From Elusimicrobiota bacterium (GTDB lineage Bacteria; CG03; SLGR01; PWQF01), in contig PWOI01000179.1 of assembly GCA_003557485.1 (NCBI GenBank), forward strand, positions 13,789 through 77,788: DNA of 64,000 nucleotides. Direction: 5' to 3'. This document shows, one piece after another, positions 1 to 35,288 of this stretch. The notes beneath the pieces were generated by a model. It saw only the letters and a list, made by a program, of their open reading frames with translations. It made no database searches and was not told where the DNA came from. Position 1 is the first letter of the stretch, and each line of letters opens with the position of its first letter. Position numbers and translations under genes: made by a program.

Positions 1-3000
1 TTGTTAGGGTTGTTAGTTTTTGTCTGTTTTAATCTATATGCGGAAAGTCCGCCTGCTCCTTCAGAATTAAGTTTAAGAGTTGAGGGAACATCAGGGTCAG
101 GTATTCCGGAAAATTATGCAGGCATAGAGAATCCTTATCCGCAATTTAGTTGGGACTCCGCTAATCAGGAGGCTTTTCAGATTCAGCTTGGAATAGGGAA
201 TCCTGCAAATCCGTATAATGTTATATGGGATACGGAAAAAGTTATATCATCTAACAGTTACTGCTATTATGACGGTTCGGAACCCCTTCAATCCAGAGAA
301 CGATATCACTGGCGTGTGAGAATATGGGACAATAATGACCCCGAAGCGTCTCCTTCAGACTGGGCTCTGGACTCTCCTTCTTTTGAAATGAATACCTTTA
401 TATTTAACCGGGACTTTGAACCTATTGGTAATCAGAGTCCGGCGTTTGCTTTCGGGGATGTAACTGGCAACGGTCTGAGAGATATAGTTATCTCCGCTCA
501 TACCGGAACTACGGGGGAATTAATTGTATACGGGAATACTGGCAGCGGCGAATACGAAGCAGTATGGAGTACAGATTCGGTTGTTTCCGAATCAATAGCG
601 CTTGCAGACCTTAACTCCAATGGCTCTCTCGACTTGATAGTGCTTAACAGGCAATCGGCTATGGACAGTCTCTATATTTTCAAAAACAAGGGAGACGGTA
701 CTTTCGAAAAAATATTTCAGAGGACGGGTGACGGAAGCAGAGCTGTAGCTGTAGGGGATATTAATAGAAATGGTAGAATTGATATTGTTGAGGCATTTTA
801 CGGTGTAAACCGGGTTTGGTTAAACAGGAAAGAAAACTTTGATTTTACAGAGTATACTTTTGGAGGAAATAAAAATAATAATGATATTGCACTGGCAGAT
901 CTTAATGGAAATGGATATCTTGATCTTATAGTAGCTAACAGCGGGGCAAATGAAGTTTATCTTAATACGGGTCAATTAAATTCACCATTTGAAAACACAG
1001 CTGATTGGAACGACGAATCTCTTACTCCGGTTACAAGTAATTCGTTGGTGGTTATTGATATAAACGGAAATGGACTCTGGGATTTTGTCATAGGTGGCAG
1101 AATAGGCGACGATCCGGCTTTTTACAGGCTTTATATGAATGAAGGTGACGGTACTTTTAATGGCGATGGGACTACCGAACCATACGATGCCGATTCAAGG
1201 GCACTTACATCGGGTGACATAAATAATAACGGGTTACTGGACCTTGCAGACGGGAATCTGGATAGGGACCTTATTCTTATTAATGAAGGAGGTAGTTTCG
1301 ATCTGTTAAATGAAGGTTTTTATTCTAATGAACAGACTTACCGCGCAGTTCTTGCAGATTTTACGGGAAACGGGAAAGCAGACCTCCTTAGAGGGTTTAC
1401 AGATTCTAAAAGCAAACTGCTTATACAGGTTCCGGATGACTTGTATGTTCCCTATGAGCCTCCCGCTCCCCCGACAGATAATTTTGCAGGATATTACTCA
1501 ACTAGTACAGGAAAACTGCATTTAAGCTGGGGGCACGGGGAGAGCGGGTTTACTCCCCAGAGTCAGCTTTCCTACAATATACGCATAGGAACCTATCCGG
1601 GAGGAGGCAGTATTATCTCCGGCGCTCTGGGCTCAACTGATAATTCAGGGTCATTTTGGGGCAATATAGGACGTTCAACATATGTAAATCTGCAAGTTGA
1701 CCCACAAACTTTTTTCTGGAGTGTACAGGCTATTGATGGAGTTAAAAATGCCGGCCAATGGTCGGTTGAACATATAATTAATACTCCGCCGTCAATTGGT
1801 TGGGCCGAGGAGGGAGTTCTTCTTTCAACTTGCGCGCGCCAGTGGAGTTTTGACAAAATTACCGATAAAGAATATTTAACTTTCATATATCATGAAGATC
1901 GCAGAGGACTTATAGACATAGACTTTAGGGTAAGTGATATTGAGGGAAACAGGGTGAGGCTTACCGGGTTTTCGTATTCCACTGCCGGAGCCGACGGAAC
2001 ATGGTATGACGTTGCCGATGATAGCCCGAATCTGACTCTTTCAGGTAATCAGGAAACGTCCAACTGGCCGGATAAAAATGGAGAGTGGTTTAAGGCAACC
2101 GGAGATCTGGAAACGGAACATATGTTTACTTTTACTGCAGCTGATATGCTTAGGGATGAAGGCATTATAACAGGCAATAATTATAACTTTAAAACTTCCT
2201 CTTTTACTGTTAGGTTTACGGTTGTTGATGAACATGATGCCGAATCCGAGCCCGTGGTATCGGAATACTTTTCTGTTGATTTGAAGAGCCCCTCTGTTCC
2301 CGGATCCCTTATCACAACCGGAACTTACGATAAAGATTCTATTACTCTTGAGTTCAGCACACCTTCTGCCGATGATAACTTTAAAAAATATATGATTTTT
2401 TACGGTGAGACTCCGGGTGAAGCAGGTCATTATTACCCGGGTTACGGTACTATACATGCCGATGAAGCTCTTTTGAGTTATGATTTCGCAGGCGCCACGT
2501 CAACTGTCTTCGAGGGATTAAATCCAGACACCACCTATTATTTCAGAATATGGGCCTATGATAAATTCGGTAATTACAGCAGGCAGCCGGAAGAAGAGAT
2601 AACCGTTCGGAAAACAAACCATCCTCCAGATATTGAAATATATTCCGTATACCAGGCAACCGACGGAAGCGGGCTGGTCTATATTTCCTTCACCGGGTTT
2701 GATAACGATGTTGAATATTCAAGTTATTCCTGGAGCCAGTGCACCTTCAGCTTAGGGGGAAGTACATACGAAATGAAGCCTTCTACCGGTAATATTCTTT
2801 TTTCCGGAGAGCCGCTGCTCTTTACAAAAGATGTCTCTACTTCTGTTTTTGTATGGGATGCCGGACAGCAGCTTGCAGAGTTAACGGCCCTGTCGGATAA
2901 TATACAGGTGAATATTACTCTTACTGTTTTTGACGGAAGAGATACGGGATCAGCGGGATATTCTAATTTTAATGTAGACAATAAACCTCCATATTTTGAG

Positions 3001-5793
3001 GCTGGAGACCTGGAAATAGGGGAAGTTACTTCAGGGACTATAGAATGGCTTTGGCCAAGGGCCGTTGAGGAGAATTTTGTCAGGTACGAGCTTTGGTATT
3101 CTTCCGTAAGCGCTGAATCAGTCATTAACAGGTCAACACAAACGGCGCATTTTGAAACATTTGTAGATATCAATAAGACTGATGATATTACAGAAGAACT
3201 TCTTTCCCAAACACGGTACTGGGGGCAGGTTTGGGCTTATGACGGGCTGGGTTATGAAACCTATACATCAACGGTCTCACGAACTACCGGTTATCCTCCA
3301 AGTCTCTGGGTTTCGGCTCAGCCGGATCCAAAACGGGACGGCAGCGGCCACGTTGAATTTGAAGTTAAAATAAATGATCCTGATGGGTACGACAACTGGA
3401 TAAGTGTCAAGTTTTCTACAGATGGTGTTCTATTCCATAATGCCCACATAGGTCAAATAACAGATAAGGACGGAATACAGCGCACACCCTATAACATTGA
3501 GGAATACCAGATAAGCGGTATTCCTACAAAAGAAGGTGAGGACCTTATTACCAATACTCTGGTGATACGCTGGGATTCGAAAGACCAGCTTCCGGGTCAT
3601 ACATACGGATTGGATGGGCAGAATCACGAAAATGTCTATCTGCGTATAACTCCTTTTGATGGTTATTCAACAGGTGAAAGCACGCAGACCCAGGCCGTGC
3701 GAATAGATAATTCCAGGCCCGAACTTATAGTTTTTGATGATCCTGATCCTCTTATTAAAAGTTATAGTTGGTATAGTCACGATGATAGTGAATTAACGCT
3801 TTATTTTCATGGCGAATACGGCGAGCAAGGTGAATTTTTGTATGTGAGTACCGCATCTGTTGATTTTTCAAAAATTATGGTTTCAACAGGTACCGGACAG
3901 CCAGGGCAGTATATAGATCTTGAAGGTTCTGATGTTGAATTCTCGTTATGCGGAGATTATGTTCATATTACAATAACCGATACACACAGAAACTGGATTG
4001 CAAGACGTGATGGGGAGGGGAAGAGAGAAAATGTTTTTCTCAGGCTTTTATCCGGTGCTGTTGTTGACAGTTACGGTAATCCCAATATAGAGGAAGAACA
4101 GGTTAATTTTCACTGGATTGATAAAAGTGATCCAGTTTATCGATCTAATTACCTGACTTGGTATCCTGCCTGGTATTCGTATCCTTTTGATACTTTACCT
4201 CAGCTTACGACAGCTACCTATGAAATTATAGGAGGGGATATCAAGCTTAAACTGGAATTTGATGAGTATATGGATGTGCGCAGTTTTAGGGATACTGATT
4301 TAAGTTCAATAGTTATTTATGCGACATCACCATTTGACAGCAGGGATCTTTCTCATGATGAGAATATAACTGTTTTAACAGAGGAAAGTGATTCAAAGAT
4401 AATTGAATTTGACATACCTACGGGATTTCATCTGCTGATATGGGATTTTCAGGACGGAAATTTGTTTCTTTCCATTCCTGAAGAAAGCGACCTTAGGGAT
4501 TTATCAGGAAATCATTTGCTTGAGATTTCAACTGATGGTTCCCGCAGGATAGAAACACCATCGGAAGAAGATGCGCCGACTGTCAGTACGCAGACTGTTT
4601 CTCCGAAACCCGGAGAATATAATGTGTCAAAGACAACAAGTATTTATGTTGGATTCAGTACTTTTCTTGTTGATGACCCCCCGGAGAGAAAAAGTCCCAG
4701 GGAAAGTATAAATATCCGTCAGATTGAAGGGCCTACAGGCGAAAAATTAAGTAATGAAATATCGCCCGAAATAATAGTATACTGTAGAGAAGACAAACTT
4801 CTTGAATTTGTTCCTTCGAAACCCTTTCCGGGAAATTCCCTGATTGAAGTTACCATTGATGGGAATGAGATCTCTAATTTTTTTGGGGAACATATGGAGG
4901 AGGATTTTATATGGAGATTCAGGACGCAGTTGGATAGAGGGAAAGATAATCTTATAAGAAGCCCTTCGGGCATAGTTGAAATACTTGTTCCCGCTGGTCA
5001 GTTTGTATCAGACGGCGTAATAAATTTTACTGAAGGAATACCGTCCAAAGATCCCCATGATAAGGTATCAATAGATGCCTACAATGAGGCAGTAAGAAAA
5101 GAGAGATCTTGGGGTAACCCTTATAAATACCCTATAGAGGAGTTGAGCTTTGAGGTTCTTTTTTCAACTGATAGGAATAATCATTTTGACAGGGTTGCAT
5201 TCACGGAGAATGCGCAGATAACTATAAACTACTCAACGGTTATAATAAGCGGCTTAACGAAAACAGGAACCTGGGACTATATTCGTTCTGATTCAAAAGA
5301 TTACCGGCACAGTCCTCCTGTCGCTGAAAAGACTTTGCGAATCTATTACCTGGATGAGGACTCCCGGATGTGGCGCCCTCTTGCCTCGGAAGTAGATACG
5401 GACGAAAAAACCATTACGGCACCTATGAGGCATTTTAGTATTTATACTGTTATGGGAGGGAAGAATTACAGTGCCGAAGATGCCTATGCGTATCCGGTTC
5501 CCTATAAACCCTCGGAAATACCAGAAGATTTTAAAGGCGACCCGGCAAGATCCGGAATAAGGTTTACGCGCCTTCCCTCAGAGTGCGAAATAGAAATATA
5601 TACAATTTCAGGCCGGCTGGTAAATTCGTTTACCCATTCTGACGACAATCTGCTTCCGGGAGCGCAGGCAGGAAGCAGTTACTGGTACCCGGTGGAAAAC
5701 AGAAACGGACGGCCTTTAGAGAGCGGTGTTTATATATATGTGGTTGAAAGTTCCGGAAACAGGAAAAGCGGAAAGCTTATGATAATACGATGA
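1..5793 (+). CDS. Giant secreted FG-GAP / fibronectin-III surface protein with type IX-like C-terminal domain (5' end probably cut)
   Basis: About 1930 residues. The reading frame is open at base 1. The first residues are a hydrophobic stretch ending in LYAES, like the end of a signal peptide without its charged N-region, so the true start is probably upstream. In order: a fibronectin/Ig-like domain (about 15-125); seven FG-GAP/VCBS repeats (about 150-480) with DxNxNGxxD calcium-loop motifs such as DLNGNGYLDL; fibronectin-III-like domains (about 490-600, 750-870, 990-1110); further Ig-like segments; and a Big_5-like domain near 1530-1640. The last ~100 residues resemble a type A sorting domain of the type IX secretion system (IYTISGRLV, then ESGVYIYVVE and a basic end). 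The next gene overlaps its stop by 4 nt and encodes a PorV-like protein, the usual partner of such domains. I infer an exported adhesin or surface protein; its ligand is unknown. Confidence 0.8.
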   Translation: MLGLLVFVCFNLYAESPPAPSELSLRVEGTSGSGIPENYAGIENPYPQFSWDSANQEAFQIQLGIGNPANPYNVIWDTEKVISSNSYCYYDGSEPLQSRERYHWRVRIWDNNDPEASPSDWALDSPSFEMNTFIFNRDFEPIGNQSPAFAFGDVTGNGLRDIVISAHTGTTGELIVYGNTGSGEYEAVWSTDSVVSESIALADLNSNGSLDLIVLNRQSAMDSLYIFKNKGDGTFEKIFQRTGDGSRAVAVGDINRNGRIDIVEAFYGVNRVWLNRKENFDFTEYTFGGNKNNNDIALADLNGNGYLDLIVANSGANEVYLNTGQLNSPFENTADWNDESLTPVTSNSLVVIDINGNGLWDFVIGGRIGDDPAFYRLYMNEGDGTFNGDGTTEPYDADSRALTSGDINNNGLLDLADGNLDRDLILINEGGSFDLLNEGFYSNEQTYRAVLADFTGNGKADLLRGFTDSKSKLLIQVPDDLYVPYEPPAPPTDNFAGYYSTSTGKLHLSWGHGESGFTPQSQLSYNIRIGTYPGGGSIISGALGSTDNSGSFWGNIGRSTYVNLQVDPQTFFWSVQAIDGVKNAGQWSVEHIINTPPSIGWAEEGVLLSTCARQWSFDKITDKEYLTFIYHEDRRGLIDIDFRVSDIEGNRVRLTGFSYSTAGADGTWYDVADDSPNLTLSGNQETSNWPDKNGEWFKATGDLETEHMFTFTAADMLRDEGIITGNNYNFKTSSFTVRFTVVDEHDAESEPVVSEYFSVDLKSPSVPGSLITTGTYDKDSITLEFSTPSADDNFKKYMIFYGETPGEAGHYYPGYGTIHADEALLSYDFAGATSTVFEGLNPDTTYYFRIWAYDKFGNYSRQPEEEITVRKTNHPPDIEIYSVYQATDGSGLVYISFTGFDNDVEYSSYSWSQCTFSLGGSTYEMKPSTGNILFSGEPLLFTKDVSTSVFVWDAGQQLAELTALSDNIQVNITLTVFDGRDTGSAGYSNFNVDNKPPYFEAGDLEIGEVTSGTIEWLWPRAVEENFVRYELWYSSVSAESVINRSTQTAHFETFVDINKTDDITEELLSQTRYWGQVWAYDGLGYETYTSTVSRTTGYPPSLWVSAQPDPKRDGSGHVEFEVKINDPDGYDNWISVKFSTDGVLFHNAHIGQITDKDGIQRTPYNIEEYQISGIPTKEGEDLITNTLVIRWDSKDQLPGHTYGLDGQNHENVYLRITPFDGYSTGESTQTQAVRIDNSRPELIVFDDPDPLIKSYSWYSHDDSELTLYFHGEYGEQGEFLYVSTASVDFSKIMVSTGTGQPGQYIDLEGSDVEFSLCGDYVHITITDTHRNWIARRDGEGKRENVFLRLLSGAVVDSYGNPNIEEEQVNFHWIDKSDPVYRSNYLTWYPAWYSYPFDTLPQLTTATYEIIGGDIKLKLEFDEYMDVRSFRDTDLSSIVIYATSPFDSRDLSHDENITVLTEESDSKIIEFDIPTGFHLLIWDFQDGNLFLSIPEESDLRDLSGNHLLEISTDGSRRIETPSEEDAPTVSTQTVSPKPGEYNVSKTTSIYVGFSTFLVDDPPERKSPRESINIRQIEGPTGEKLSNEISPEIIVYCREDKLLEFVPSKPFPGNSLIEVTIDGNEISNFFGEHMEEDFIWRFRTQLDRGKDNLIRSPSGIVEILVPAGQFVSDGVINFTEGIPSKDPHDKVSIDAYNEAVRKERSWGNPYKYPIEELSFEVLFSTDRNNHFDRVAFTENAQITINYSTVIISGLTKTGTWDYIRSDSKDYRHSPPVAEKTLRIYYLDEDSRMWRPLASEVDTDEKTITAPMRHFSIYTVMGGKNYSAEDAYAYPVPYKPSEIPEDFKGDPARSGIRFTRLPSECEIEIYTISGRLVNSFTHSDDNLLPGAQAGSSYWYPVENRNGRPLESGVYIYVVESSGNRKSGKLMIIR

Positions 5794-6857
5794 AAAGGAT
5801 TATTATAAAATCTATTTTTTCTTTTGCCGCAATTATAATAGTTGCAACTGCTCCCGTATTCTCTGTTTTCGGAGACGGGCCCGGAAGCACAGGATATGAT
5901 TTTCTCAATATACCCATAGGTGCGCGCCGCATAGGAATGGCCGCCGGGACAGCCGTAACCGGAGATAGTGACATATACTGGTGGAATCCTGCCGGGGTGG
6001 CATATGTGGAAAGGCCAGTTGTGAGCCTGATGCATAACCAGTTTATAGAAGGCATAAGCCAGCAGAGAGCAGGGTTCACGTTTCCGATGGAGGGCATGTC
6101 GGCGGGCGCTGTTAACCTTACAATGTTGTCGTATGGTGATATAGACGGGTATGACTGGGACGGCAGTCCGACCGGAGGGGTTTCTGCCGGAAGTTACAGT
6201 ATATCCTATACTCAGGCAAAAAGATTTACTTATGATACTGCTGCTGGCTTAAGTTTAAAAGTTATACATGAACAGCTTGATGATGAAAGCGCCTTTGCCG
6301 CAGCTCTTGACGGTGGAGCTTTGTTTGAACCATATGAAGGAGTTTCTGTGGGGCTGGGATGGAGGAACCTCGGCGTAAGCGGTAATTTTATTGATGAGGC
6401 GCCACAGCTTCCTTTATCCTTGTTTTTCGGAGCCGGGTTGAGACTTAATTATTTTACTCTTTTTGTAACAGATATTTCTTATCTGGACGGAGAACTTAAA
6501 TATGGTGCAGGGGTAGAGCTTAGTCTATGGGACTCTTTCTTTTTCCGTGGCGGTTGGGAAAGTTTTGCTGATGTTGATGAGACCTTCCGGCTTGGAGCGG
6601 GCTGGAGCTTCCGGGGAACCGGTATAAATTATGCGTTTGCTCCTTATGATAAGTTCGGCAGTACTCATAGGATGGATATAAGCTTTCAATTTGGTGAGCC
6701 GCCGCTTATAGAGAGAATATACCGCAGGGGGCAGAGTTTATATAGGCAGGAGAAATTTGAAGAAGCCTGGGTTGAATTCAATAAGGTAAAAGCTTTAAAC
6801 TCCAGGTATAAACGCATAAATTACTGGGTTGAAAGAGTGGAGGATGAAATAAAATAA
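5790..6857 (+). CDS. PorV/UPF0164-like outer-membrane beta-barrel protein with short TPR tail
   Basis: 355 residues with a clear signal peptide (basic start, long hydrophobic core, cleavage near VFG-DG). The mature start (GYDFLNIPIGARRIGMAAG, then a WWNPAGVA motif) is the hallmark of the PorV/PorQ (UPF0164) family. Alternating beta-strands follow to about residue 305. The last ~50 residues (RRGQSLYRQEKFEEAWVEF) look like one or two TPR helical hairpins, which classical PorV lacks. In Bacteroidetes, PorV shuttles cargo with type IX C-terminal domains. The upstream neighbour carries such a domain and is translationally coupled to this gene (ATGA overlap), which fits. Whether a real type IX translocon exists in this organism cannot be told from this window. 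Confidence 0.82.
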   Translation: MKRIIIKSIFSFAAIIIVATAPVFSVFGDGPGSTGYDFLNIPIGARRIGMAAGTAVTGDSDIYWWNPAGVAYVERPVVSLMHNQFIEGISQQRAGFTFPMEGMSAGAVNLTMLSYGDIDGYDWDGSPTGGVSAGSYSISYTQAKRFTYDTAAGLSLKVIHEQLDDESAFAAALDGGALFEPYEGVSVGLGWRNLGVSGNFIDEAPQLPLSLFFGAGLRLNYFTLFVTDISYLDGELKYGAGVELSLWDSFFFRGGWESFADVDETFRLGAGWSFRGTGINYAFAPYDKFGSTHRMDISFQFGEPPLIERIYRRGQSLYRQEKFEEAWVEFNKVKALNSRYKRINYWVERVEDEIK

Positions 6858-6875
6858 AGCGGACACTGTTTTGTC

Positions 6876-6904
6876 TTGACAAAATCGGATATGCGTGTTA
6901 TTAA
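6876..6904 (+). promoter_or_regulatory. Sigma70-type promoter for the riboswitch/motor transcript
   Basis: TTGACA at 6876-6881, a 17-nt spacer, then TATTAA at 6899-6904. The predicted start is near 6911. The RNA would begin with a GGGAG/CTCCC hairpin (6911-6928) before the riboswitch. The -35 is a perfect match and the -10 is moderate. Confidence 0.7.
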
Positions 6905-6950
6905 TTTAGTGGGAGAGAGAAGGCTCCCATATTAGGTGAAAATTTAATAT

Positions 6951-7042
6951 AGCCTGCTGATAAGGGCAACCGTCGGGTAACCGGCGGCTCGCAAAGTCAC
7001 AGCTCCGGGTTAACCGGAGGGCTGGTCTGCCGGTGGGACGTT
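6951..7042 (+). promoter_or_regulatory. GEMM-type (c-di-GMP-I / cGAMP) riboswitch aptamer
   Basis: The core shows the GEMM landmarks in order: AAGGGCAACC (6962-6971), a 7-bp stem CCGTCGG/CCGGCGG closed by a GTAA GNRA tetraloop, the invariant CGCAAAG stretch (about 6990-6996), a second stem CTCCGG/CCGGAG, and a 3' strand GGTCTGCCGG that resembles the family's closing GGTTGCCG. GEMM-I RNAs bind c-di-GMP and some variants bind 3',3'-cGAMP. I cannot decide which from a by-eye alignment. A perfect ACTGCAAT/ATTGCAGT hairpin (7050-7072) and a terminator follow, making a complete expression platform upstream of the gene at 7131. The 3' half departs somewhat from consensus. Confidence 0.8.
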
Positions 7043-7083
7043 TAATTTAAACTGCAATATCAAAATTGCAGTAAAAGGAAATT

Positions 7084-7123
7084 AACGGCCGGTTTGCCTT
7101 TATCAGGTAATCCGGCTGTTTTT
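7084..7123 (+). terminator. Riboswitch-associated intrinsic terminator
   Basis: A 9-bp outer stem (7084-7092 with 7112-7120), one mismatch, then a 6-bp inner stem (7094-7099 with 7105-7110) around a 5-nt loop. A T run at 7119-7123 follows. The ATG of the next gene is at 7131, so termination would stop transcription just before the start codon. No Shine-Dalgarno sequence separates them. Confidence 0.8.
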
Positions 7124-7130
7124 ATTATAT

Positions 7131-8726
7131 ATGAACAAACTGTTTAAAAATTTAACGGTTTTTTGCCTGGCCCTTATTTACGCGGCCGCGCTGGGGTGGC
7201 TTTGCGTTGGACTGGTTTTTGCCGGTAGCGGCGGAATGCCTGGCGCTTTTATGTCCTGGGGAGCAGGCGCAAGGTCCCTGGGAATGGGAAAGGCTTTTGT
7301 TTCAATTGCTGATGATGCTACGGCTGCGTACTGGAACCCGGCAGGGCTTGCCGGTATTTCCCGTCCCGAACTGACGGCCCTGCATACAATACTCTGGGGC
7401 GGCACGGTTTATGATTTTATAAGTTATGTTCAGCCTACAGAATTCGGGGGGACCTTCGGATTCAGCGGGACCAGGTTGTTTTTGGGCGGTATCGAGGGAA
7501 GGGACTCAGATAACAGAAAAACTTATGACTTTGAAGACATACAGAGCGCTTACGGCATATCATACGGCCAGCGCGTGCTTGATAATCTTTCTGTAGGAGG
7601 CGGATTTAAACGAATGACGCATACTCTCGATGACCATACAAGCGGAAATTATACTATGGATATTGGAGTTCTCTATTCTCCGATTGACAGTCTCAGCCTC
7701 GGTATGAACCTGCAGAATCTTTTTGCAGTTAAGTTTGGAGATTCCACCGATACCAGCCTTCCTATGAACCTGCGCCTGGGCGCAAGCTATAGACTTTTAA
7801 GGGACAGGCTTCTTCTTGCTACTGATTTAGCCGCTTCGGTTTATGGATGGGATATGGGGCTTCCGGTTTTTATGGGAGCCGAGTACAAGGCTATGGATTT
7901 TCTTGATATAAGGTTTGGTGTCGACAGGGAAGAGATAAATATAGGCTTTGGTCTTACATATCTTGATTACGGGTTGGATTATTCATATGCTGCTCACGAT
8001 TTAGGCGGTTCCCACAGGGTTTCCGCAACTGTAAAACTAGGAAGCTCTGTCGAAGAAGCAAAGCGCCGTACTGCCCGGGAACGTGAAGCTGCCGGCGATG
8101 CAGCCTACAGGGCGGGGTTATTCAGAGAGGCTGCCGGATACTATGAGCGCGCTTATGCAATGGATCCTTCTGACAGGGACCTTGCCCGAAAGCTGAATCT
8201 TCTTACAAGAATAGCGCAGGTCATACCTTCTCGTGATGACGACACTCGCGAGGGTGAGCTTTTAAGGAGAGGGCTTAGGGAATATATAGAAGAAAATAAT
8301 ACCGACCTGCTTCTCCTTACACTGAACCATATGCTGGCCCTTGATCCCGGTGACCGTCAGGCGGAAAACCTGCTGCGACTTATCTCTTCAATAGAGGGTA
8401 TCAGCCAGCCAAGGATAAGGGTTGCTTCCGGAATGAGCCTTTCCGAATACAAGCTGCACAGATCTCTGCAACGGTTTTATGAGGGGGAATATGCCAGGGC
8501 GATAGAACTGGCGCAGGATGTTCTTGTTATTGAACCGCGCAACGCTGAAGCCTACAAAAGAATAGGTTCGGCTTTTTATGCAATAGGCAATGAAGAGAGA
8601 GCAGTAGAAAACTGGGAAGAATCGCTTAGAATTAATCCTGCGGATACCCAGCTGGAAAGGTTTCTTGAGAGAGTTCGTGGAGAAGAGGAGAGTCCTCCGG
8701 TAGAAAATATGTTAGATGAGTTTTAA
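7131..8726 (+). CDS. PorV/UPF0164-like outer-membrane protein with C-terminal TPR domain
   Basis: 531 residues with a signal peptide ending near FAGSG. The mature start (MPGAFMSWGAGARSLGMGKA, then AAYWNPAGLAG) is a second PorV/UPF0164 signature, and a beta-rich barrel runs to about residue 305. The rest is helical. It has TPR units at about 310-345 (AAGYYERAYAMDPSD) and 430-515 (ARAIELAQDVLVIEPRNAEA and AVENWEESLRINPAD). The gene is first after the riboswitch-terminator and 12 nt upstream of the FliF-FliG fusion, so the two are almost certainly co-transcribed. No ribosome-binding site precedes the ATG, which lies 7 nt after the terminator T run. I infer an outer-membrane component with a TPR docking surface, possibly linking the motor to the cell surface. 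Confidence 0.82.
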   Translation: MNKLFKNLTVFCLALIYAAALGWLCVGLVFAGSGGMPGAFMSWGAGARSLGMGKAFVSIADDATAAYWNPAGLAGISRPELTALHTILWGGTVYDFISYVQPTEFGGTFGFSGTRLFLGGIEGRDSDNRKTYDFEDIQSAYGISYGQRVLDNLSVGGGFKRMTHTLDDHTSGNYTMDIGVLYSPIDSLSLGMNLQNLFAVKFGDSTDTSLPMNLRLGASYRLLRDRLLLATDLAASVYGWDMGLPVFMGAEYKAMDFLDIRFGVDREEINIGFGLTYLDYGLDYSYAAHDLGGSHRVSATVKLGSSVEEAKRRTAREREAAGDAAYRAGLFREAAGYYERAYAMDPSDRDLARKLNLLTRIAQVIPSRDDDTREGELLRRGLREYIEENNTDLLLLTLNHMLALDPGDRQAENLLRLISSIEGISQPRIRVASGMSLSEYKLHRSLQRFYEGEYARAIELAQDVLVIEPRNAEAYKRIGSAFYAIGNEERAVENWEESLRINPADTQLERFLERVRGEEESPPVENMLDEF

Positions 8727-8738
8727 AGGAATCAAAGC

Positions 8739-10646
8739 ATGAATAAAATGATAAAAGTTCTGGTACTTCTTATGGCGCCCCTTTTTCTGGGCGCCTCTGA
8801 TTTTATGGACTATACAACTTTAATGAATCAGAAAATGGAAACCGAGAGGCGCCTTGAAGACCATCTGCAGGGAATTGTTTCCAGAATAGTCGGGGAAGGA
8901 CGTTCCACAGTTTTAGTCAGCGTAAATCTTTCCGACCTGAGCCGCAGCCGTGAAACTGTAGAAGAATGGCTTGAGCGGGGTGAGGATGCCGAAAGGCGGC
9001 TTCCGATGCGGGAAGAATACCTTCCCGGTATACCCCGCAGGGAAGATATGGCAGAAAGAGAAACGGAAGTCGCCGAGCGGGCCGGTGGAAAACGCCTCCA
9101 GGACGTAATAACTCTGCCTTCGGAATTTATAGAGAGTATGCGCATAAGCCTTATACTTGATTCCACTATATCCGAGACTGTAATCGCAACGGTGGAAAAC
9201 GTTATAACCGAGGTTATGGACCTGGATGCAGCCCGGGGCGATCGTTTAACTATACAGACAGTGGATTTTGCGGGTAGAACGGTAGATTTTATGGGTTTCC
9301 TATTTAATCCATATTTTTATGTTATATCCCTGGTACTTATAATTATAACCATACTCGCGCTTTTTCTTTTCGGGCCGCTGAAAAAATTTCTTTTCGCTAC
9401 TTTACAGACGATGAAAGACTTAAAAGGAATGAAGAGCGAAACCGAATACTCAGGAGGCGGGGGCGGGGGCGGGGGCGGATTTGGCATAACGCCGGACGGC
9501 GAAATTGAAATGGAAGAAGAGATAGAAGAAGATGAAGAATTGAAAGAGGGGGAAGAAGCAGATATAGAAGGCGAAGAAGAAGACGAGGAGTTTAAAAAGA
9601 TGACATATATACCGCTTAAGTTTCTGGAAAACAAGGATTTGAAGAAACTGGCTTACCTTTTAAGTTTTGAAAAACCGGAAGTAGGGGCTCTTCTTCTTAA
9701 ATATCTTTCGCCTCCGCGCGCTGCAAAAGTCCTCAGCTCAATTCCGGGAGAAGAAAGAACTATAGGAATAACAAGGGAGATTGTAAAATTTCAGAGAACT
9801 TCTAAGGAGGTCATGCAGAAAATAGATGAGTTTCTTAGCAGAAAAATAGATTACATTGCCGGCGGCGCCGAAAGTCTTGTGGAAATGATTGAAATGATGG
9901 ATGAAGAAAAAAGAGAGCAGCTCCTAAACCAGATTTCTTCTGAGGATCCTGAATTTGCCGAAAAAATTAAAAAGCGTATTTTCAGTTTTGAAAATATTGT
10001 AAATATGGATGACCCGTCCATACAGACACTAATACAGGAAATGGAGACTGCCGACCTTGGCGCAGCCCTTAAAAATGTATCTGAAGAAGTAAGAAACAAA
10101 TTTGTTTCCAATATGAGCGAAGGTGCGGCTGCTCTTTTAAAAGAGGAAATAGAATTTGGAAAGAAAATGACCGAGGAGCAGATAAAACAGAAACAAATGG
10201 AAGTTGTCGCAAAAATAAAAGATCTGGAGACGTCCGGCTCAATAGCACCCGTGACCGGCGCATCCAAAGAGGAATTATGGGTGGAAGAGCTGGGTGAGGG
10301 AGAAAAAGAAGGAGTTCTTGAGGAAATTATAAAGGCGGCCCAGGAAGCTTACGATAAGAAACAGGAACTTGAAGCTGCTGAGGCTGCCGGCCGTCAGGAT
10401 GATGAAGCTGCATTTGAAAGCTACCGTAAAGGTTTGGAACTCTATAAACACCAGGATTACGATAATGCAATAAAAGAGTTTAATAAATCCATTGCCTCCA
10501 ATCCATCCCTGTGGCAGAGCTATCAATATATAGGTTCCTGCTATCTTGCGCTCGATAATCAGGATGGAGCTAAAAAAGCCTACCGAAAAGCCCTTGAGCT
10601 TAATCCGTCAAACGAGCAGCTCAGGCAATGGTTGGAAAGTCATTGA
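8739..10646 (+). CDS. FliF(C-terminal)-FliG-TPR fusion protein, motor rotor-like
   Basis: 635 residues. There is a signal peptide (1-19), then a region matching the C-terminal periplasmic part of FliF: GIVSRIVGEGRSTVLVSVNL (45-64) and the hallmark RGDRLTIQTVDF (166-177). One membrane helix follows (about 192-213). A linker contains nine glycines (239-247) and then a very acidic stretch (255-287). A FliG-like region spans about 293-503, including DPEFAEKIKKRIFSFENIV and ALKNVSEEVRNKFVSNMSE, which align well with the FliG C-terminal domain. A TPR pair occupies 556-632. The FliF N-terminal ring domains are missing, and the FliG N-terminal FliF-binding domain is reduced or absent, as a covalent fusion would allow. 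In flagella these parts form the MS-ring and the rotor that meets MotA. Here it sits with motA/motB, so I infer the rotor of a motor without a flagellum. SD AAAGGA precedes the start. Confidence 0.85.
   Translation: MNKMIKVLVLLMAPLFLGASDFMDYTTLMNQKMETERRLEDHLQGIVSRIVGEGRSTVLVSVNLSDLSRSRETVEEWLERGEDAERRLPMREEYLPGIPRREDMAERETEVAERAGGKRLQDVITLPSEFIESMRISLILDSTISETVIATVENVITEVMDLDAARGDRLTIQTVDFAGRTVDFMGFLFNPYFYVISLVLIIITILALFLFGPLKKFLFATLQTMKDLKGMKSETEYSGGGGGGGGGFGITPDGEIEMEEEIEEDEELKEGEEADIEGEEEDEEFKKMTYIPLKFLENKDLKKLAYLLSFEKPEVGALLLKYLSPPRAAKVLSSIPGEERTIGITREIVKFQRTSKEVMQKIDEFLSRKIDYIAGGAESLVEMIEMMDEEKREQLLNQISSEDPEFAEKIKKRIFSFENIVNMDDPSIQTLIQEMETADLGAALKNVSEEVRNKFVSNMSEGAAALLKEEIEFGKKMTEEQIKQKQMEVVAKIKDLETSGSIAPVTGASKEELWVEELGEGEKEGVLEEIIKAAQEAYDKKQELEAAEAAGRQDDEAAFESYRKGLELYKHQDYDNAIKEFNKSIASNPSLWQSYQYIGSCYLALDNQDGAKKAYRKALELNPSNEQLRQWLESH
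9459..9476 (+). repeat. (GGGGGC)3 hexanucleotide repeat in the fusion linker
   Basis: Three tandem GGGGGC units flanked by GGAGGC and GG. They encode part of the nine-glycine hinge between the membrane helix and the FliG-like half. The run could form a G-quadruplex. Gain or loss of a unit would add or remove two glycines without a frameshift. Confidence 0.85.
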
Positions 10647-10709
10647 AAGCGAAAATAGAATGCAGAACTTGAAAAAAAATAAATACTGTATTAGTACTTT
10701 ACAATTCTT

Positions 10710-13700
10710 ATGAATCCTGAAAACAACCAAAATCATAATAAAGGGCAGGGACTTCCCGGACCGCCTCCGCCTCCCTTTTCGGGAGATGCCGGGAAGAATC
10801 CTTCGCCCGGAATACCGGATATGCCGCCAATTCCCGGCTCTGCGCCACCCCCTCAGTCTATTGATGATGTTTTTACTCCTCAGGACCCCGGCATGGCAAA
10901 AGAAAAAAAACGTCCTTCTGAGAGAGAGAAACAGATTGAAGAAGAAATTTCCAGGCTGGACAGCCGTATGGAAAAAGAACGGCTTCAGCTGATGGAAAGG
11001 CTTAAGGAAAAAGAAAACGAAAACCTACGCCTGCAGGAACAGTTTCTTGAAAAAGAAAAAGAGGATGCCCGCCGTAAAAAGGAAGAGTTTGATAGATTGA
11101 AAGAAAAGCTTCATGAACAGTTTGTCGAAAAGGAAAATAAACTTAAAGAGGAAAGAGAACAGTGGCGCAGAGAGCTTGACGAAATAAGAAAAGAAAACAG
11201 AAGCAGACTTGCCCTTGAGCAGACGCAGAACCAGATCCGCATAGAGGCCCAGCAGCAGGCTCGCGAAGAATTTCAGCAACAGATGAAAGAAATGAAAAAG
11301 GAGCTTGAAAATGCCCGCCGCCGCGCTTACGAAGAGGCAATTAAACACAAGGAAGAAGAGAAAAATTCCATTAAGGTAGAGCAGGCCCTTAAAGAGGTCC
11401 TCCAATCAACTTCAATGAGCCAGAAAGCCGAGCAGGTTGAAAAGGAAAAAGAAAAACTCCGCGAAGAACTTTATCATCTTGAAAAAGAACTGGCATCCCA
11501 GAAAATTAATATGACTCGCAAGCTGCAGGAGAGCGAGAATTTAAGAGACAATATCAGGCTTGACTATCATAATAGGATCCGTGAAAGCCGGAGTCAGTAT
11601 GAAAGTAAAATTGCAGAGTTGAGAGAGACTGCTTCCGAGCTTGGCAATAAACTCTGGCAGGCCCGGAACAGCTATGAGAACAAAAAGGAGCTGTGGGAAG
11701 AAAGGGTCCGGGAAAATATTCAGGAAAAGGAAAATCTTACACTGCAGTACCAGAAACAGATAAGCGAACTCAGACTTGAATATGAACAGAAAATTACCGA
11801 TGCGTTAAGCGCAAAAGAATCTGCAGAAAACAGGTATTGGGGAATTAAGGAAAAATTTGATGAGCAAACGGTTGAGCTTAATTCGCGTATTAAAGAACTT
11901 GAAAAAGAGAAAGACCTTATAGAAAAAGAATACGGAATGAAAGTCGCCTCTCTTGAAAGCGCCCTTAATGAAGAGAAAGCCGAACTTGCTGCCCAGAAAA
12001 AGATAAGCGAGGAAAGACTTAACCGAATTAACGATGAACTTCACGCAAAGGAGAACAGGTATAAGGAAAAAATAAGCGATATAGAAATAAATTATTCCGA
12101 AAAAATCCAGAATATAAAAGAAAAATATAAATCCGGCCTTTCTGAAAATGAAAGAGAAATAGAAAAGCTTAAGGCGCTTCTGAAGGAAAGCCGTGAGAAA
12201 TTATCACAGAATTCCGGAGGATCTCACCGGGATTTTGAAAACAGCAAAAAAGAGGTAGAAGAAGCCCGCCGTCTAATGGAGAAGGAAAAGAACAGGTTCA
12301 ATTTCCGGCTCAGAGAAATAGAGAATGATTATGAAAAGCGTCTCTCTGAACTTAAAGTTAAAAACAGCCGTCTTGAATCAAGGATATCAGCCCTTGAAGA
12401 AAAAAGAGAGACCTCTATAGATAAATATAACGACAAGATAGAAGAACTCAACGGAAAAATAAATGAACTTAAAATTGAAAACGCAGCTTTACAGGGAGAT
12501 TTACTGAAAACCGAGAGGCAGATTGAGAGTTCCGACAGAGCTTTAGAGGATATGGCCCGCAAAAATGCCGAAATTCACCACCGCCTTGTCAGCAGCCGAA
12601 AAGAAAATGATGAGGACATTTACCGGTTGAGAGAAGAAATAAATTCTCTGCGCAGGGAAAAAACCGAAGCTCTTCTAAGGATTGAGAACGAGCATTCCAG
12701 GGAATCGGAACTCTATGAGAACCAGCTTCTTCAGGCGCGCAGGGCAACAGAGGATCTCAGGCGCGAAAAAGACCGGCAGATAGATTCAATTAAACAGCAG
12801 TTTGATAATTACAGAAAGAACTTTCAGTGGCTTAAACAGGAGTGGCAGCAGCAAAAAGAAGAACTCCGGGAAAATTTCAGCGTGAAGGAAAAGGGATATG
12901 AAAATGAGATAAAACAGCTTGAATCGGCTCTGAGCGAAGTGCAGAAACTGAAAACACATTCTGAAAGTGAACTTAACGCTGAAATTGAAGCTGTCAGGAA
13001 GGAAAAACAATCCCTGCAGGAAAAATTTGAATCAAAAATTCAGCAGATGAGGGATGAATTTGCAGCTAAAAAGACGGATCTTTATGAAAAACTGAATGAA
13101 AAACAAAGGAATATAAGCGAATTGGAAGCCCGTCTGGATACAGAAAGAGTTGACTATACAGCCCGGATCCAGCAAGCGGAAAAAGAGAAAACTGCTGTTT
13201 TGCGGGAAAAAGAGATCCTTGATGTAGAAACTGAAAAACTGAAAAAAGAGACTCATAGCCTCCAGCTCAGGTACGAAAGAGAAGCAGAAGAAAACCGTAA
13301 ACTGAGAGAGGCTCTTCATCATGGTGAAAAGAAGTACAGAAACGAAATAGGAAAGCTTAAGGAATACTACGAGAAAAACCTTGAATCCCTTCGCAGAAGG
13401 CAGGATGGTATTGCAAATGTAGAGTATGACAGCCTTGATACTGAGAATAGAGAATTGAAGCATCAGCTTAAGTCTGCTGAATCTGAGATAAGCCGGCTTA
13501 AGTCACAGCTTGTAGAAAAAGAAGAGGCTCAGGAAAAAATACAGGCTGAAATAGATAAATATACAGCAGAAATTGATGACCTTACACAGGAATTGAAGCA
13601 AAGACAGTCTGTTATTGAACAACTTGAACGGAAAGTTTCTGATATTGATGATTCGCAGGCTGTGCAGGAGGATATAAGCCAGCTTAAAAAAGAAAACAGC

Positions 13701-14618
13701 GAATTAACCGGACATTTGGAAGAATCATTGCGGGAAAGGGATATTCTTAAAGAGAAAAATGCCAGCCTTTTGTCGGAAAATGAAGCTAAAAAGCAGCAAA
13801 TAGAACAGCTTTCCCTTAAACTTGAGGAAAAAGAAAGCCAAATAGGCCAGCTTCAAGGTAAAATTCCCGGAGAAGATATTATATCCGGTAAGAATGAGGA
13901 AATAGCAGAACTTGAAGATGAAATTAAAGAGCTAAGGTCCGCCCTTTCGGATTCTGAATCTAAAATAAAGCAGCTTTCAGAGGCTGCATCCCGTGCGGAT
14001 TCTCTTATGGACAGCAAAAAAGAGATAGAAGAACTTTCCGCTTCACTTGCGGAAAAACATTTGAAAGAAATTGAAGAGAAAGAAAGAATTATAGAAGAAT
14101 TAAGAAAAGAACTTGAGGAGTCCCTTGAAGAACTTGAAGAGAGGGAGCAGCAGCCTGTGACCGATGGGCTTAAATCTGAAAGGCTGCAGGTTCTTGCCGG
14201 GGAGAATGCTGAACTCAAGGAAAAAATAAGAGAATTGGAGTCTCAGCTTGAGATAGGAATGGAGCAGCTTCGCAGTGAGAAGATGGTTCCGGAATATGAT
14301 ACAGAAAAAACAGACGAAAAAATAAAGCAAATCAATGAAAAATGGAGGAAAAAATGGGCCGGCCGCGAACAGAAAGTAAAAGATTTCATATCACAGGCAA
14401 AAGCCAGGCACAGCCAGCTTAAAGACAAGCTTCAGGTTGCTCTTGAAGACCAGAAAATTCTTTCACAGCTTGCAGAAAAGGAAAAACAACAGAAACAGAA
14501 GCTTGCTTCAGAGCAGGCCGAACTTATAAAAGAGCTTCAGGAAAGCAACAGGTCTTTTGTCAGTAAAATACTTGCCAAACTGAAAAAAGGCGGGCCTAAA
14601 GGCGTACTCATCCTTTAA
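10710..14618 (+). CDS. Giant coiled-coil protein with proline-rich N-terminus
   Basis: 1302 residues, not assignable to a named family. Residues 1-60 are proline-rich (GLPGPPPPPF, MPPIPGSAPPP) and likely disordered. From about residue 65 to 1285 the protein is almost unbroken charged heptad-type helix rich in E, K, R, Q and L, with no signal peptide or membrane segment. It should therefore be cytoplasmic and could span well over 100 nm if fully extended. It ends in a short basic-hydrophobic tail (SKILAKLKKGGPKGVLIL). It lies between the FliF-FliG fusion and flbD-motA-motB, so I infer a scaffold or cytoplasmic filament for the motor, comparable in place to AglZ of Myxococcus gliding but without its receiver domain. 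No SD precedes the ATG. A TACAAT box at 10700-10705 without a good -35 may mark an internal promoter. Confidence 0.8.
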   Translation: MNPENNQNHNKGQGLPGPPPPPFSGDAGKNPSPGIPDMPPIPGSAPPPQSIDDVFTPQDPGMAKEKKRPSEREKQIEEEISRLDSRMEKERLQLMERLKEKENENLRLQEQFLEKEKEDARRKKEEFDRLKEKLHEQFVEKENKLKEEREQWRRELDEIRKENRSRLALEQTQNQIRIEAQQQAREEFQQQMKEMKKELENARRRAYEEAIKHKEEEKNSIKVEQALKEVLQSTSMSQKAEQVEKEKEKLREELYHLEKELASQKINMTRKLQESENLRDNIRLDYHNRIRESRSQYESKIAELRETASELGNKLWQARNSYENKKELWEERVRENIQEKENLTLQYQKQISELRLEYEQKITDALSAKESAENRYWGIKEKFDEQTVELNSRIKELEKEKDLIEKEYGMKVASLESALNEEKAELAAQKKISEERLNRINDELHAKENRYKEKISDIEINYSEKIQNIKEKYKSGLSENEREIEKLKALLKESREKLSQNSGGSHRDFENSKKEVEEARRLMEKEKNRFNFRLREIENDYEKRLSELKVKNSRLESRISALEEKRETSIDKYNDKIEELNGKINELKIENAALQGDLLKTERQIESSDRALEDMARKNAEIHHRLVSSRKENDEDIYRLREEINSLRREKTEALLRIENEHSRESELYENQLLQARRATEDLRREKDRQIDSIKQQFDNYRKNFQWLKQEWQQQKEELRENFSVKEKGYENEIKQLESALSEVQKLKTHSESELNAEIEAVRKEKQSLQEKFESKIQQMRDEFAAKKTDLYEKLNEKQRNISELEARLDTERVDYTARIQQAEKEKTAVLREKEILDVETEKLKKETHSLQLRYEREAEENRKLREALHHGEKKYRNEIGKLKEYYEKNLESLRRRQDGIANVEYDSLDTENRELKHQLKSAESEISRLKSQLVEKEEAQEKIQAEIDKYTAEIDDLTQELKQRQSVIEQLERKVSDIDDSQAVQEDISQLKKENSELTGHLEESLRERDILKEKNASLLSENEAKKQQIEQLSLKLEEKESQIGQLQGKIPGEDIISGKNEEIAELEDEIKELRSALSDSESKIKQLSEAASRADSLMDSKKEIEELSASLAEKHLKEIEEKERIIEELRKELEESLEELEEREQQPVTDGLKSERLQVLAGENAELKEKIRELESQLEIGMEQLRSEKMVPEYDTEKTDEKIKQINEKWRKKWAGREQKVKDFISQAKARHSQLKDKLQVALEDQKILSQLAEKEKQQKQKLASEQAELIKELQESNRSFVSKILAKLKKGGPKGVLIL

Positions 14619-14622
14619 AAAA

Positions 14623-14850
14623 ATGATAAATGTGACCAAATTAAACGGCGATGGTATAATCCTTAACGCCGAACTTATAGAAACGGTTGAATCGCGCCCC
14701 GACACTCTTATAACCCTTACTACTGGAAATAAAATTATGGTAAAGGAAAAAGTTGAGGATATAATAAAAAGGGTTGAGGATTATAAAAGGCAGGTAAATA
14801 TGCTTACCCGAGAGAAGCTTAGTGCGTTGCTCAGGGAAGAAGAGGAATAA
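14623..14850 (+). CDS. flbD: FlbD/SwrD family flagellar motor accessory protein
   Basis: 75 residues, the usual family length. It starts MINVTKLNGDGIILNAELIE and continues PDTLITLTTGNKIMVKE, which matches the FlbD/SwrD signature (ITLTNG-K-VKE). In Bacillus subtilis, SwrD raises flagellar motor power. In most genomes the gene sits next to motA, as it does here, 3 nt upstream. Its presence supports the view that MotA and MotB here are flagellar-type stators rather than ExbBD or Tol homologues. Confidence 0.9.
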   Translation: MINVTKLNGDGIILNAELIETVESRPDTLITLTTGNKIMVKEKVEDIIKRVEDYKRQVNMLTREKLSALLREEEE

Positions 14851-14853
14851 ATT

Positions 14854-15711
14854 ATGGACCTGACGACAGTAATAGGGCTTTCCGGAGGCATTATAATAGT
14901 TTTTACAGCGGTTGCTCTCCGTGGTGGTATGGCAGGCCTGCAGGGGTTTCTGGATATGCCTTCCGCTATGATTACTTACGGGGGAACCTTTGCCGCTCTT
15001 ATGGTGAACTATCCGATAGATAAAGTTGTAAAAGCCTTTAAAGTCGTCAAAAAAGTATTTACCGAACAGCAGGACGACCCTAACGATTATATTGAAAAAT
15101 TCCGCCAGCTGATTATCAAAGCCTCAAAACAGGGAGTTCTTTCCCTTGAGGAAGATATAAAAAAAATGGACAACGAATTTTTAAGAAATGGAGTTAAAAT
15201 GGTCATGGACGGCCAGAGCCAGGAGCATATAGAAGAAGAAATGGAGACTGAACTGGCATTTACCAGGGAAAGGCATAAAATAGGCCAGGAAATTTTTGTG
15301 ACACTTGGCACTTACTCCCCTGCGTTCGGTATGATAGGGACTATTATGGGTCTTATCCTGATGCTAGCCGACCTTCAGGATACTGCCCAGATAGCTGCCG
15401 GTATGGCGGTAGCTCTATTGACAACCTTTTACGGCGCCCTTGGCGCTTATCTTATTTTTCTTCCCATCGCCGGCAAGCTGAAAAGGCGTTCGGAAGAGGA
15501 GCTTTTTCTTAAAAGTGTCATAACCAGAGGCGTCATGTCCCTTCATGCGGGAGAGGTTCCTTCAATAGCGGTAGCTAAACTGCGCGCGTATATACCGAGA
15601 TCCTCTTTTATGGAGCCTTCCGGCACAAAAAAAGGGAAGGCTGACGAAAAAGAAGAAGGAAACAAGAAGAAAAAAACAAAGGTAAAATACCGTAAAAAGA
15701 AGAAGAAATGA
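14854..15711 (+). CDS. motA: MotA-type stator (proton/sodium channel) protein
   Basis: 285 residues with four membrane helices (about 2-22, 33-53, 148-171 and 181-204) and a long cytoplasmic loop between helices 2 and 3, the MotA topology. The motifs YSPAFGMIGTIMGLI (154-168) and TTFYGAL (190-196) are family hallmarks. MotA forms a pentamer around a MotB dimer, and its loop drives FliG. The last 30 residues are an unusual lysine-rich tail (KKKKTKVKYRKKKKK at the end) that ordinary MotA lacks. It may bind an acidic partner, for example the acidic linker of the FliF-FliG fusion, but that is inference. It overlaps motB by 4 nt (ATGA). Confidence 0.93.
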   Translation: MDLTTVIGLSGGIIIVFTAVALRGGMAGLQGFLDMPSAMITYGGTFAALMVNYPIDKVVKAFKVVKKVFTEQQDDPNDYIEKFRQLIIKASKQGVLSLEEDIKKMDNEFLRNGVKMVMDGQSQEHIEEEMETELAFTRERHKIGQEIFVTLGTYSPAFGMIGTIMGLILMLADLQDTAQIAAGMAVALLTTFYGALGAYLIFLPIAGKLKRRSEEELFLKSVITRGVMSLHAGEVPSIAVAKLRAYIPRSSFMEPSGTKKGKADEKEEGNKKKKTKVKYRKKKKK

Positions 15712-16562
15712 GCAAAATTGCCGCATTTAAGAGGAGTCTTCCTAAAGACGAGGGGGATATTGAGGTCGGTAAAGGCTCCCCCCCGTGGATGACTACTTAT
15801 GGAGACCTTGTTACCCAGCTCCTGATTTTTTTTGTTATGATGTTTGCGCTTGCCGCCACGCTCAATGAGCTGCAGTTGATAAGCATAAAACGCAGAATTG
15901 AGAACTACGCATACCAGAACCAGCTTGGCCATCTTATAATGCTCGATATTAACCCCAAAGGATTGGTAATAACCCTTAGCGAAAAAATGATGTTTGATTC
16001 CGGCCAGGCCGAGATATATGAGGATGCAAAAGCCATTCTCTCCGCAATAGCAGGTGAAATAATAGATGTACCCAATCCTGTCAGAATTGAAGGTCATACG
16101 GATAGCGTACCCATCAGTACAGATAGGTTTCCTTCCAACTGGGAACTGTCAACAGCCCGGGCGACAAATGTAGCAAGATATCTTGTAGAGAACCTGGAAT
16201 TTCCGCCTGACCGGATAGCTGCCGGGGGGTACAGTAAATACCATCCTGCGGTAGGAACGGAAATTGAAGATGAAATATTCAACTACAAGTTAAAAGTAAG
16301 AGAGGTTCCACAGCATTATTCCCTTGAGCTCAGGCGCGCATCCACTCCGGAGGAGGAAGACCTGGTTATGTTGAGAATAAGAGAAGAACAGCTTGAGATA
16401 CAACGGGAAATGCAGGGAATAATTATGGAGCATATACGTATTGCAAACCTTGATGCGGACAGAAGAGCCCGGAACAGGAGGGTTGACATAATAGTGGAGA
16501 GGATAGGCACTACTGTTGAAAGAAGAACGGATATCGCGGCGCCTGTTGCCGTTTCTCATTAG
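15708..16562 (+). CDS. motB: MotB-type stator protein with OmpA-like peptidoglycan-binding domain and a C-terminal insertion
   Basis: 284 residues with a short cytoplasmic N-terminus, then WMTTYGDLVTQLLIFFV (27-43). Asp33 falls at the conserved ion-carrying aspartate of MotB. The OmpA-like domain follows, with IEGHTDS (127-133) and NWELSTARA (144-152), which binds peptidoglycan and anchors the stator. About 65 extra residues (roughly 184-250, charged and helical) separate GYSKYHPAV from the final NRRVDIIVERI strand; ordinary MotB has about ten there. This is the last gene of the motor block. The trp promoter and leader begin just after it. Confidence 0.93.
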   Translation: MSKIAAFKRSLPKDEGDIEVGKGSPPWMTTYGDLVTQLLIFFVMMFALAATLNELQLISIKRRIENYAYQNQLGHLIMLDINPKGLVITLSEKMMFDSGQAEIYEDAKAILSAIAGEIIDVPNPVRIEGHTDSVPISTDRFPSNWELSTARATNVARYLVENLEFPPDRIAAGGYSKYHPAVGTEIEDEIFNYKLKVREVPQHYSLELRRASTPEEEDLVMLRIREEQLEIQREMQGIIMEHIRIANLDADRRARNRRVDIIVERIGTTVERRTDIAAPVAVSH

Positions 16563-18209: not shown

Positions 18210-18233
18210 TTCACTGCCGGCAAAGGAGTTGAA

Positions 18234-35253: not shown

Positions 35254-35288
35254 GATCTGGTTTTTTTAAAGATAAGTGGAGGATCATC

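Follow-up and report, generated by a model that had tools for sequence, protein, structure and literature searches.

The window, i.e., the whole stretch of 64,000 nucleotides analyzed from the genome of an Elusimicrobiota bacterium, carries a block of genes (positions 5790-16562) in which a rotary motor of the flagellar kind is combined with outer-membrane proteins of a type that exports and displays surface adhesins (Table 1). This combination points to a hitherto undescribed motor serving surface movement or secretion. A preliminary description had placed these open reading frames in one co-directional block, and both their direction and their positions were confirmed. The gene of the giant exported protein preceding the block starts 48 nt upstream of the window and overlaps the PorV1 gene by 4 nt, as do the MotA and MotB genes with each other. 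The spacing between the remaining genes amounts to 12 nt (PorV2 to the rotor fusion), 63 nt (rotor fusion to coiled-coil protein), 4 nt (coiled-coil protein to FlbD), and 3 nt (FlbD to MotA), the sole large gap in the block being the 273 nt between PorV1 and PorV2. Directly after the block, tryptophan biosynthesis genes were identified (16755-19244; anthranilate synthase component I, followed by a Glycos_transf_3 family protein). The window also encodes an Erythromycin-esterase family protein (41299-42594; PF05139, E 1e-83) and two proteins of 666 and 646 aa (25838-27838 and 35241-37181) for which no Pfam match at E 1e-5 was obtained.

Table 1. Features of the motor block in the window and examples of type II loci encoding two MotB proteins.
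Feature	Position	Strand	Basis or remark
Giant exported protein (FG-GAP, Ig-like, fn3; FlgD-Ig/T9SS-type-A-like tail)	1..5793	+	Domain matches; candidate cargo or load
PorV1, PorV/PorQ-family outer-membrane barrel	5790..6857	+	NF033709 111.9 bits, cut-off 90
PorV2, PorV/PorQ-family barrel with C-terminal TPRs	7131..8726	+	NF033709 115.1 bits, cut-off 90; TPR matches
Rotor fusion FliF RBM3-FliG-TPR with signal peptide	8739..10646	+	Profile, profile-profile, and structure comparison
1302-aa cytoplasmic coiled-coil protein, proline-rich N-terminus	10710..14618	+	Heptad periodicity, no membrane helix
FlbD homologue	14623..14850	+	PF06289 E 6.9e-26
MotA stator subunit, flagellar type, not ExbB/TolQ type	14854..15711	+	Profiles, residues, tree
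MotB stator subunit with ion-binding Asp, plug, and OmpA peptidoglycan-binding domain	15708..16562	+	Profiles, residues
Two-MotB type II loci, examples	L031:12629-13902, L139:4708-6150, L140:5579-7024		

Most of the protein identities proposed in the preliminary description were upheld by profile matches, namely for FlbD (90 bits), MotA (MotA_ExbB, 104 bits), and MotB (OmpA 56 bits, MotB_plug 42 bits), as well as for the FliG portion of the rotor fusion (FliG_C 108 bits, FliG_M 53 bits, and TPR matches). Both barrels exceeded the cut-off of the NCBIfam PorV_fam model, and thus meet the PorV/PorQ-family feature of the type IX secretion system (T9SS); the TPR tail claimed for both was found only in PorV2, the tail of PorV1 being short and without a Pfam TPR match. 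For the 1302-aa protein, the coiled-coil character was corroborated by a heptad periodicity of z = 9.4 compared to shuffles, and no membrane helices were predicted.

The rotor fusion was also described correctly as FliF-FliG-TPR, with the specification that its FliF part comprises only the RBM3 domain and one C-terminal membrane helix. Following the signal peptide at its start, the protein consists of RBM3 with a collar insert (residues ~20-180), a membrane helix (193-211), the FliG middle and C-terminal domains (~300-505), and TPRs (~560-630). Comparison of the periplasmic domain with nine flagellar FliFs by means of hhalign resulted in a probability of 98.4% (E 5e-15, FliF columns 239-421). 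In a VIA-align search with a model of this domain, built from a single sequence, the top 11 rows were all FliF S-ring structures (Z 9.2-8.4), and rows of the unrelated OsmC fold reached Z ~8. On the basis of this profile alignment and the predicted model, the domain is the RBM3/S-ring domain of FliF with a collar insert. The FliG C-terminal domain superimposed on FliG of the solved MotAB-FliG complex 8ucs with a TM score of 0.91 (1.5 A). Since the AlphaFold model of the whole fusion was weak overall (pLDDT 64.6, pTM 0.28), the individual domains alone were used. RBM1, RBM2, the first membrane helix, and the C-terminal tail of flagellar FliF are missing from the fusion, as is the N-terminal domain of FliG, so that the fusion takes the place of the normal contact between both proteins.

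To determine the distribution of the block, 16 genomes of the phylum were analyzed, six of them with a completeness of 90% or more and a contamination of no more than 5%. Two kinds of loci were distinguished: type I, featuring PorV-TPR, FliF-FliG-TPR, the giant coiled coil, (FlbD), MotA, and MotB, and type II, featuring PorV, a shorter FliF-FliG, MotA, MotB, and usually a second MotB. FliG_C was detected in 12 of the 16 genomes in the first search; with the split loci of G004 and G007 added, a type I and/or type II locus is present in 14, the two genomes without a locus being 63% and 66% complete. A lack of conservation in relatives, which would have refuted the initial proposal, was therefore not encountered. 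A type II paralogue also occurs in the window's own genome (contig 165, L031). Among type I loci, PorV2 is kept, and the coiled-coil protein is retained in position and N-terminal style, and only weakly in sequence. Type II loci adjoin histidine kinases, response regulators, and a GGDEF protein, which suits regulated movement. Beyond the phylum, relatives belong to the families f190, f73, and f128; G353 encodes both types, G223 and G082 type II, and the flagellate G137 a FliF-FliG fusion, a second FliG-like protein, MotA, and MotB in addition to its own flagellar FliG. On contig 17 of G137 (L143, L159), the non-flagellar FliF-FliG/MotA/MotB locus adjoins a giant tailed protein and lies near a SprA-like gene. 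Apparent FliF-FliG fusions in G361, G232, and G132 turned out to be ordinary neighbouring flagellar fliF and fliG genes, the weak FliG_C match in G022 did not correspond to a locus of the block kind, and matches that many genomes gave to alignment A1 through TPRs alone were set aside.

The flagellum itself is absent from the phylum. Profile searches for the FlhA export gate, the FliM/FliN switch proteins (FliMN_C), and the rod/hook family Flg_bb_rod remained negative for all 16 genomes, while the positive controls (E. coli, B. subtilis, Caulobacter, and Thermotoga) were matched; the complete flagellar gene set elsewhere in the genome that would have contradicted the preliminary description thus did not appear. 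Flg_bb_rod was likewise not found in G353, G223, and G082, and was present in G137.

In the tree of FliG domains, 31 block sequences formed one clade fully apart from 23 flagellar sequences (SH-aLRT 100), the latter originating from many lineages. This was a quick tree containing long branches. The block FliG of G137 fell into the block clade although this genome possesses its own flagellar FliG. In the MotA tree, types I and II each formed one clade (98), both grouping with flagellar MotA, and a single clade of both types was not rejected (p 0.30). The Exb/Tol branch was separate from block MotA with a support of 100 (AglR itself being outside the tree), so that membership in the ExbB/TolQ clade was not met.

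The residues of rotor and stator were compared as well. In the E. coli reference sequences, the named residues coincided with published positions. Flagellar FliGs keep the FliM-binding motif, K264, R281, the acidic pair 288/289, and the basic residue 297, with R281 and EHPQ in 23/23 sequences (one H126Q). Block FliGs do not meet the FliM-binding motif (EHPQ/R160) and R281, neither H126 nor R281 being kept in any of the 31, and basic 297 is gone from nearly all of them. Loss of the motif fits the absence of FliM. In E. coli, R281 and R297 of FliG are necessary for torque; with both lost, the contact with MotA must differ. Type I FliGs retain K264 (R in one) and both acids 288/289 (12/12); type II, G137 included, is less strict, 12 of its 19 sequences carrying Glu and 7 carrying Gln at position 288, 16 carrying Glu at 289, and K264 being variable. 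The ion path of the stator is kept: P173, P222, T209, and E150 are found in all 24 block MotAs, and the ion-binding Asp of MotB in 10/10 type I and in 13/13 first type II MotBs (including G137), meeting the flagellar MotA/MotB features of conserved prolines and ion-binding Asp. MotA E98 is present in 8/10 type I and 1/14 type II/G137 sequences. In the second type II MotB, Asn, Thr, or Ser replaces the ion-binding Asp in 10/10, a possible sign of stators built with two unlike MotBs. The pairing of residues was taken from the literature (PMC12505986).

The genomes carrying the block also possess T9SS-like parts. A SprA/Sov homologue of 1729 aa is encoded on another contig of the window's own genome (TIGR04189, E 5.4e-59, 199.6 bits, cut-off 200), and SprA matches, in pieces, were obtained in 15/16 genomes of the phylum, as well as in G353, G223, and G082, and more weakly in G137. 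Only in G137 is SprA linked to the block, the SprA-like open reading frame being ~11 kb away from the motor locus. The tail of the window's giant protein matched TIGR04183 (T9SS type A) with 19.3 bits, below the cut-off of 23. The window's giant protein was the initial source of this C-terminal tail, which recurs on otherwise differing proteins beside many of the loci. Block genomes encode between 6 and 45 tailed proteins (20 in the window's own genome), compared to 0-7 in seven other genomes searched. A tailed gene occurs within 6 kb of 14 out of 29 loci (2.3 expected), an enrichment that is partly circular, because the tail profile came from these loci; for several type I loci, among them those of G005, G012, and G014, no tailed gene was found nearby. 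Upstream of the window, an open frame of 4266 aa that carries this tail at its C-terminus was observed (L157:1-12801), and a REP-type-like transposase (285 aa, recognized by eye) lies between this frame and the window's giant gene. On contig 3 of G137 (61379-61603), the tail is part of an open frame with 16,989 residues, whose predicted product is a surface protein of exceptional size.

The known motor subunit of the T9SS, GldL, was detected in no block genome (386 genomes searched). It exceeded the cut-off in three of the 386, none of them block carriers, and these strong matches indicate that the model works. The GldM model TIGR03517 matched no genome searched, so the absence of GldM remains unproven. 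Other SprA-bearing genomes exist without GldL and without the block, which indicates that T9SSs in general are not driven by the block. The co-inheritance of the block with PorV, SprA, and tailed proteins, and its genomic link to them, are matters of observation. Together with the absence of GldL and the retained catalytic residues of the stator, they support the earlier suggestion of a motor that acts on surface proteins. Assembly of the parts, their rotation, and any resulting movement of cells are inferred.

The explanation favored here is a non-flagellar, ion-driven rotor-stator of flagellar origin working with a T9SS-like outer-membrane system, which we consider probable, albeit only by a modest degree. 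Its anatomy, its conservation, the absence of a flagellum, and the retention of its catalytic residues were observed directly. Ring assembly, rotation, torque path, load, and the decision between motion, secretion, or both are inferred; neither a structure of the complex nor an experiment is available. In such a machine, MotA and MotB would constitute a stator fixed to peptidoglycan, in which ion flow would turn the MotA ring and push the FliG domain of the fusion. The FliF(RBM3)-FliG fusion would form an inner-membrane ring, which, with the flagellar FliF/FliG interface substituted, would be freed from FliM/FliN. The contact with MotA is presumably altered, the acidic pair being kept in type I and R281 lost. 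The S-ring-like periplasmic collar could transmit torque to outer-membrane proteins, perhaps via periplasmic TPR tails of the PorV-family barrels, and the proteins receiving it would carry or export the tailed giant surface proteins. The output might be adhesin movement (gliding) or energised export through SprA, and the coiled coil may serve as a cytoplasmic scaffold docked at the FliG-TPR end.

Loss of R281 and of the FliM site would also be expected of a decaying flagellar remnant, in which the export apparatus and filament were lost and rotor and stator genes linger without motor function, and the FlbD-MotA-MotB order is indeed a flagellar operon signature that also occurs in the flagellar loci L144 and L145. 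However, the single deep clade of block FliGs has stayed intact in several lineages, with its genes in the same order and joined by new partners. Moreover, conservation of the MotA/MotB ion path is complete, and paralogous copies coexist in one genome; a remnant was therefore rejected as very improbable. More serious, although still unlikely, is a stator-ring complex without continuous rotation, which would perform ion-driven conformational work across the envelope like TolQR/ExbBD for outer-membrane upkeep or surface-protein anchoring. The loss of R281 in all type I/II copies and of E98 in 13/14 type II and G137 MotAs is compatible with this, as are the peptidoglycan-binding domain of MotB and the single Asp-bearing MotB of type II. 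Ring-on-ring gearing is nevertheless indicated by the retained FliG C-terminal fold and S-ring domain and by a MotA of flagellar rather than Tol/Exb type.

The occurrence of SprA in many block-free genomes leaves room for a motor devoted to gliding only, in which tailed adhesins would travel along a track without any role in secretion and SprA would be powered otherwise. The signalling genes next to type II loci are expected of regulated motility, and the coiled-coil protein, long and cytoplasmic, is reminiscent of AglZ from the gliding system of Myxococcus. A motility phenotype is not known in these uncultured cells, though, and this restriction to gliding is regarded as rather improbable. 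Finally, Zorya-like phage defence, which employs MotA/MotB, received practically no credence: the window's MotB matches PADLOC ZorB at no more than 53 bits, flagellar stator models match MotA and MotB far better, FliF, FliG, and PorV are not Zorya parts, and the effector partners ZorC/ZorD were not found among the block proteins tested.

Compared to the known systems nearest to it, the motor proposed here shares with the flagellar motor the S-ring domain, the FliG middle and C-terminal domains, the MotAB ion path, and FlbD beside MotA. In contrast to it, the block lacks FliM/FliN, export gate, rod, hook, and filament; its FliF is devoid of RBM1, RBM2, and the first membrane helix, its FliG, devoid of the N-terminal domain and FliM-binding motif, is fused to FliF, and TPR tails and PorV partners are added. 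In the Agl/Glt gliding motor of Myxococcus, a stator of the MotAB superfamily is joined by outer-membrane, TPR, and long coiled-coil proteins, all of which have counterparts in the block, but no FliF/FliG ring is known from it. AglRS was placed in a generic ion transporter clade (PMC12505986), and block MotA falls outside the Exb/Tol clade, here a stand-in for Agl/Glt. With the T9SS/gliding machine of Bacteroidota (GldLM or PorLM, SprA/Sov, PorV, and SprB), which contains an ion-driven inner-membrane motor (PMC8986121), the block genomes have in common the PorV family, a SprA/Sov-like translocon, and giant surface proteins whose C-terminal tail resembles a sorting tail. They differ in that no GldL was found, the tail scores below the T9SS type A cut-off, and the motor consists of flagellar-type MotAB and a FliF-FliG ring. 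Artificial FliF-FliG fusions of Salmonella and Vibrio reportedly assemble into rings, either in non-motile hosts or as purified proteins (PMC6079021, PMC11481574); these are engineered full-length proteins, whereas the block encodes a natural RBM3-only fusion with TPRs. Neither a FliF-FliG ring outside flagella nor a system of the block's kind was found described in the open-access literature, preprints not included.

The block fails the defining tests of a flagellum and is without the tested T9SS motor subunit GldL. More tentatively, and with doubt outweighing confidence, it may represent a separate class of envelope machine, in which several deep lineages use a flagellar-type rotary motor of MotAB/FliF-FliG in place of GldL/GldM to drive both the T9SS-like export of tailed giant proteins and their surface movement, the axle of the type II stator consisting of one Asp-bearing MotB and one without an ion site. 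In the established picture, FliF and FliG are flagellar parts. A review counts three known ion-driven rotary machines, i.e., ATP synthase Fo, the flagellum, and the T9SS (PMC9127263); if the reading is true, a FliF-FliG ring with MotAB and without FliM/N, export gate, and filament would constitute a further class. Since one of its MotBs lacks the Asp, the type II stator would allow a test of whether the 5:2 motor needs both of its ion sites. The finding bears on two open questions, namely the origin or reuse of flagellar rotors and the power source of T9SS-like systems beyond the Bacteroidota, in which SprA is encountered without GldL.
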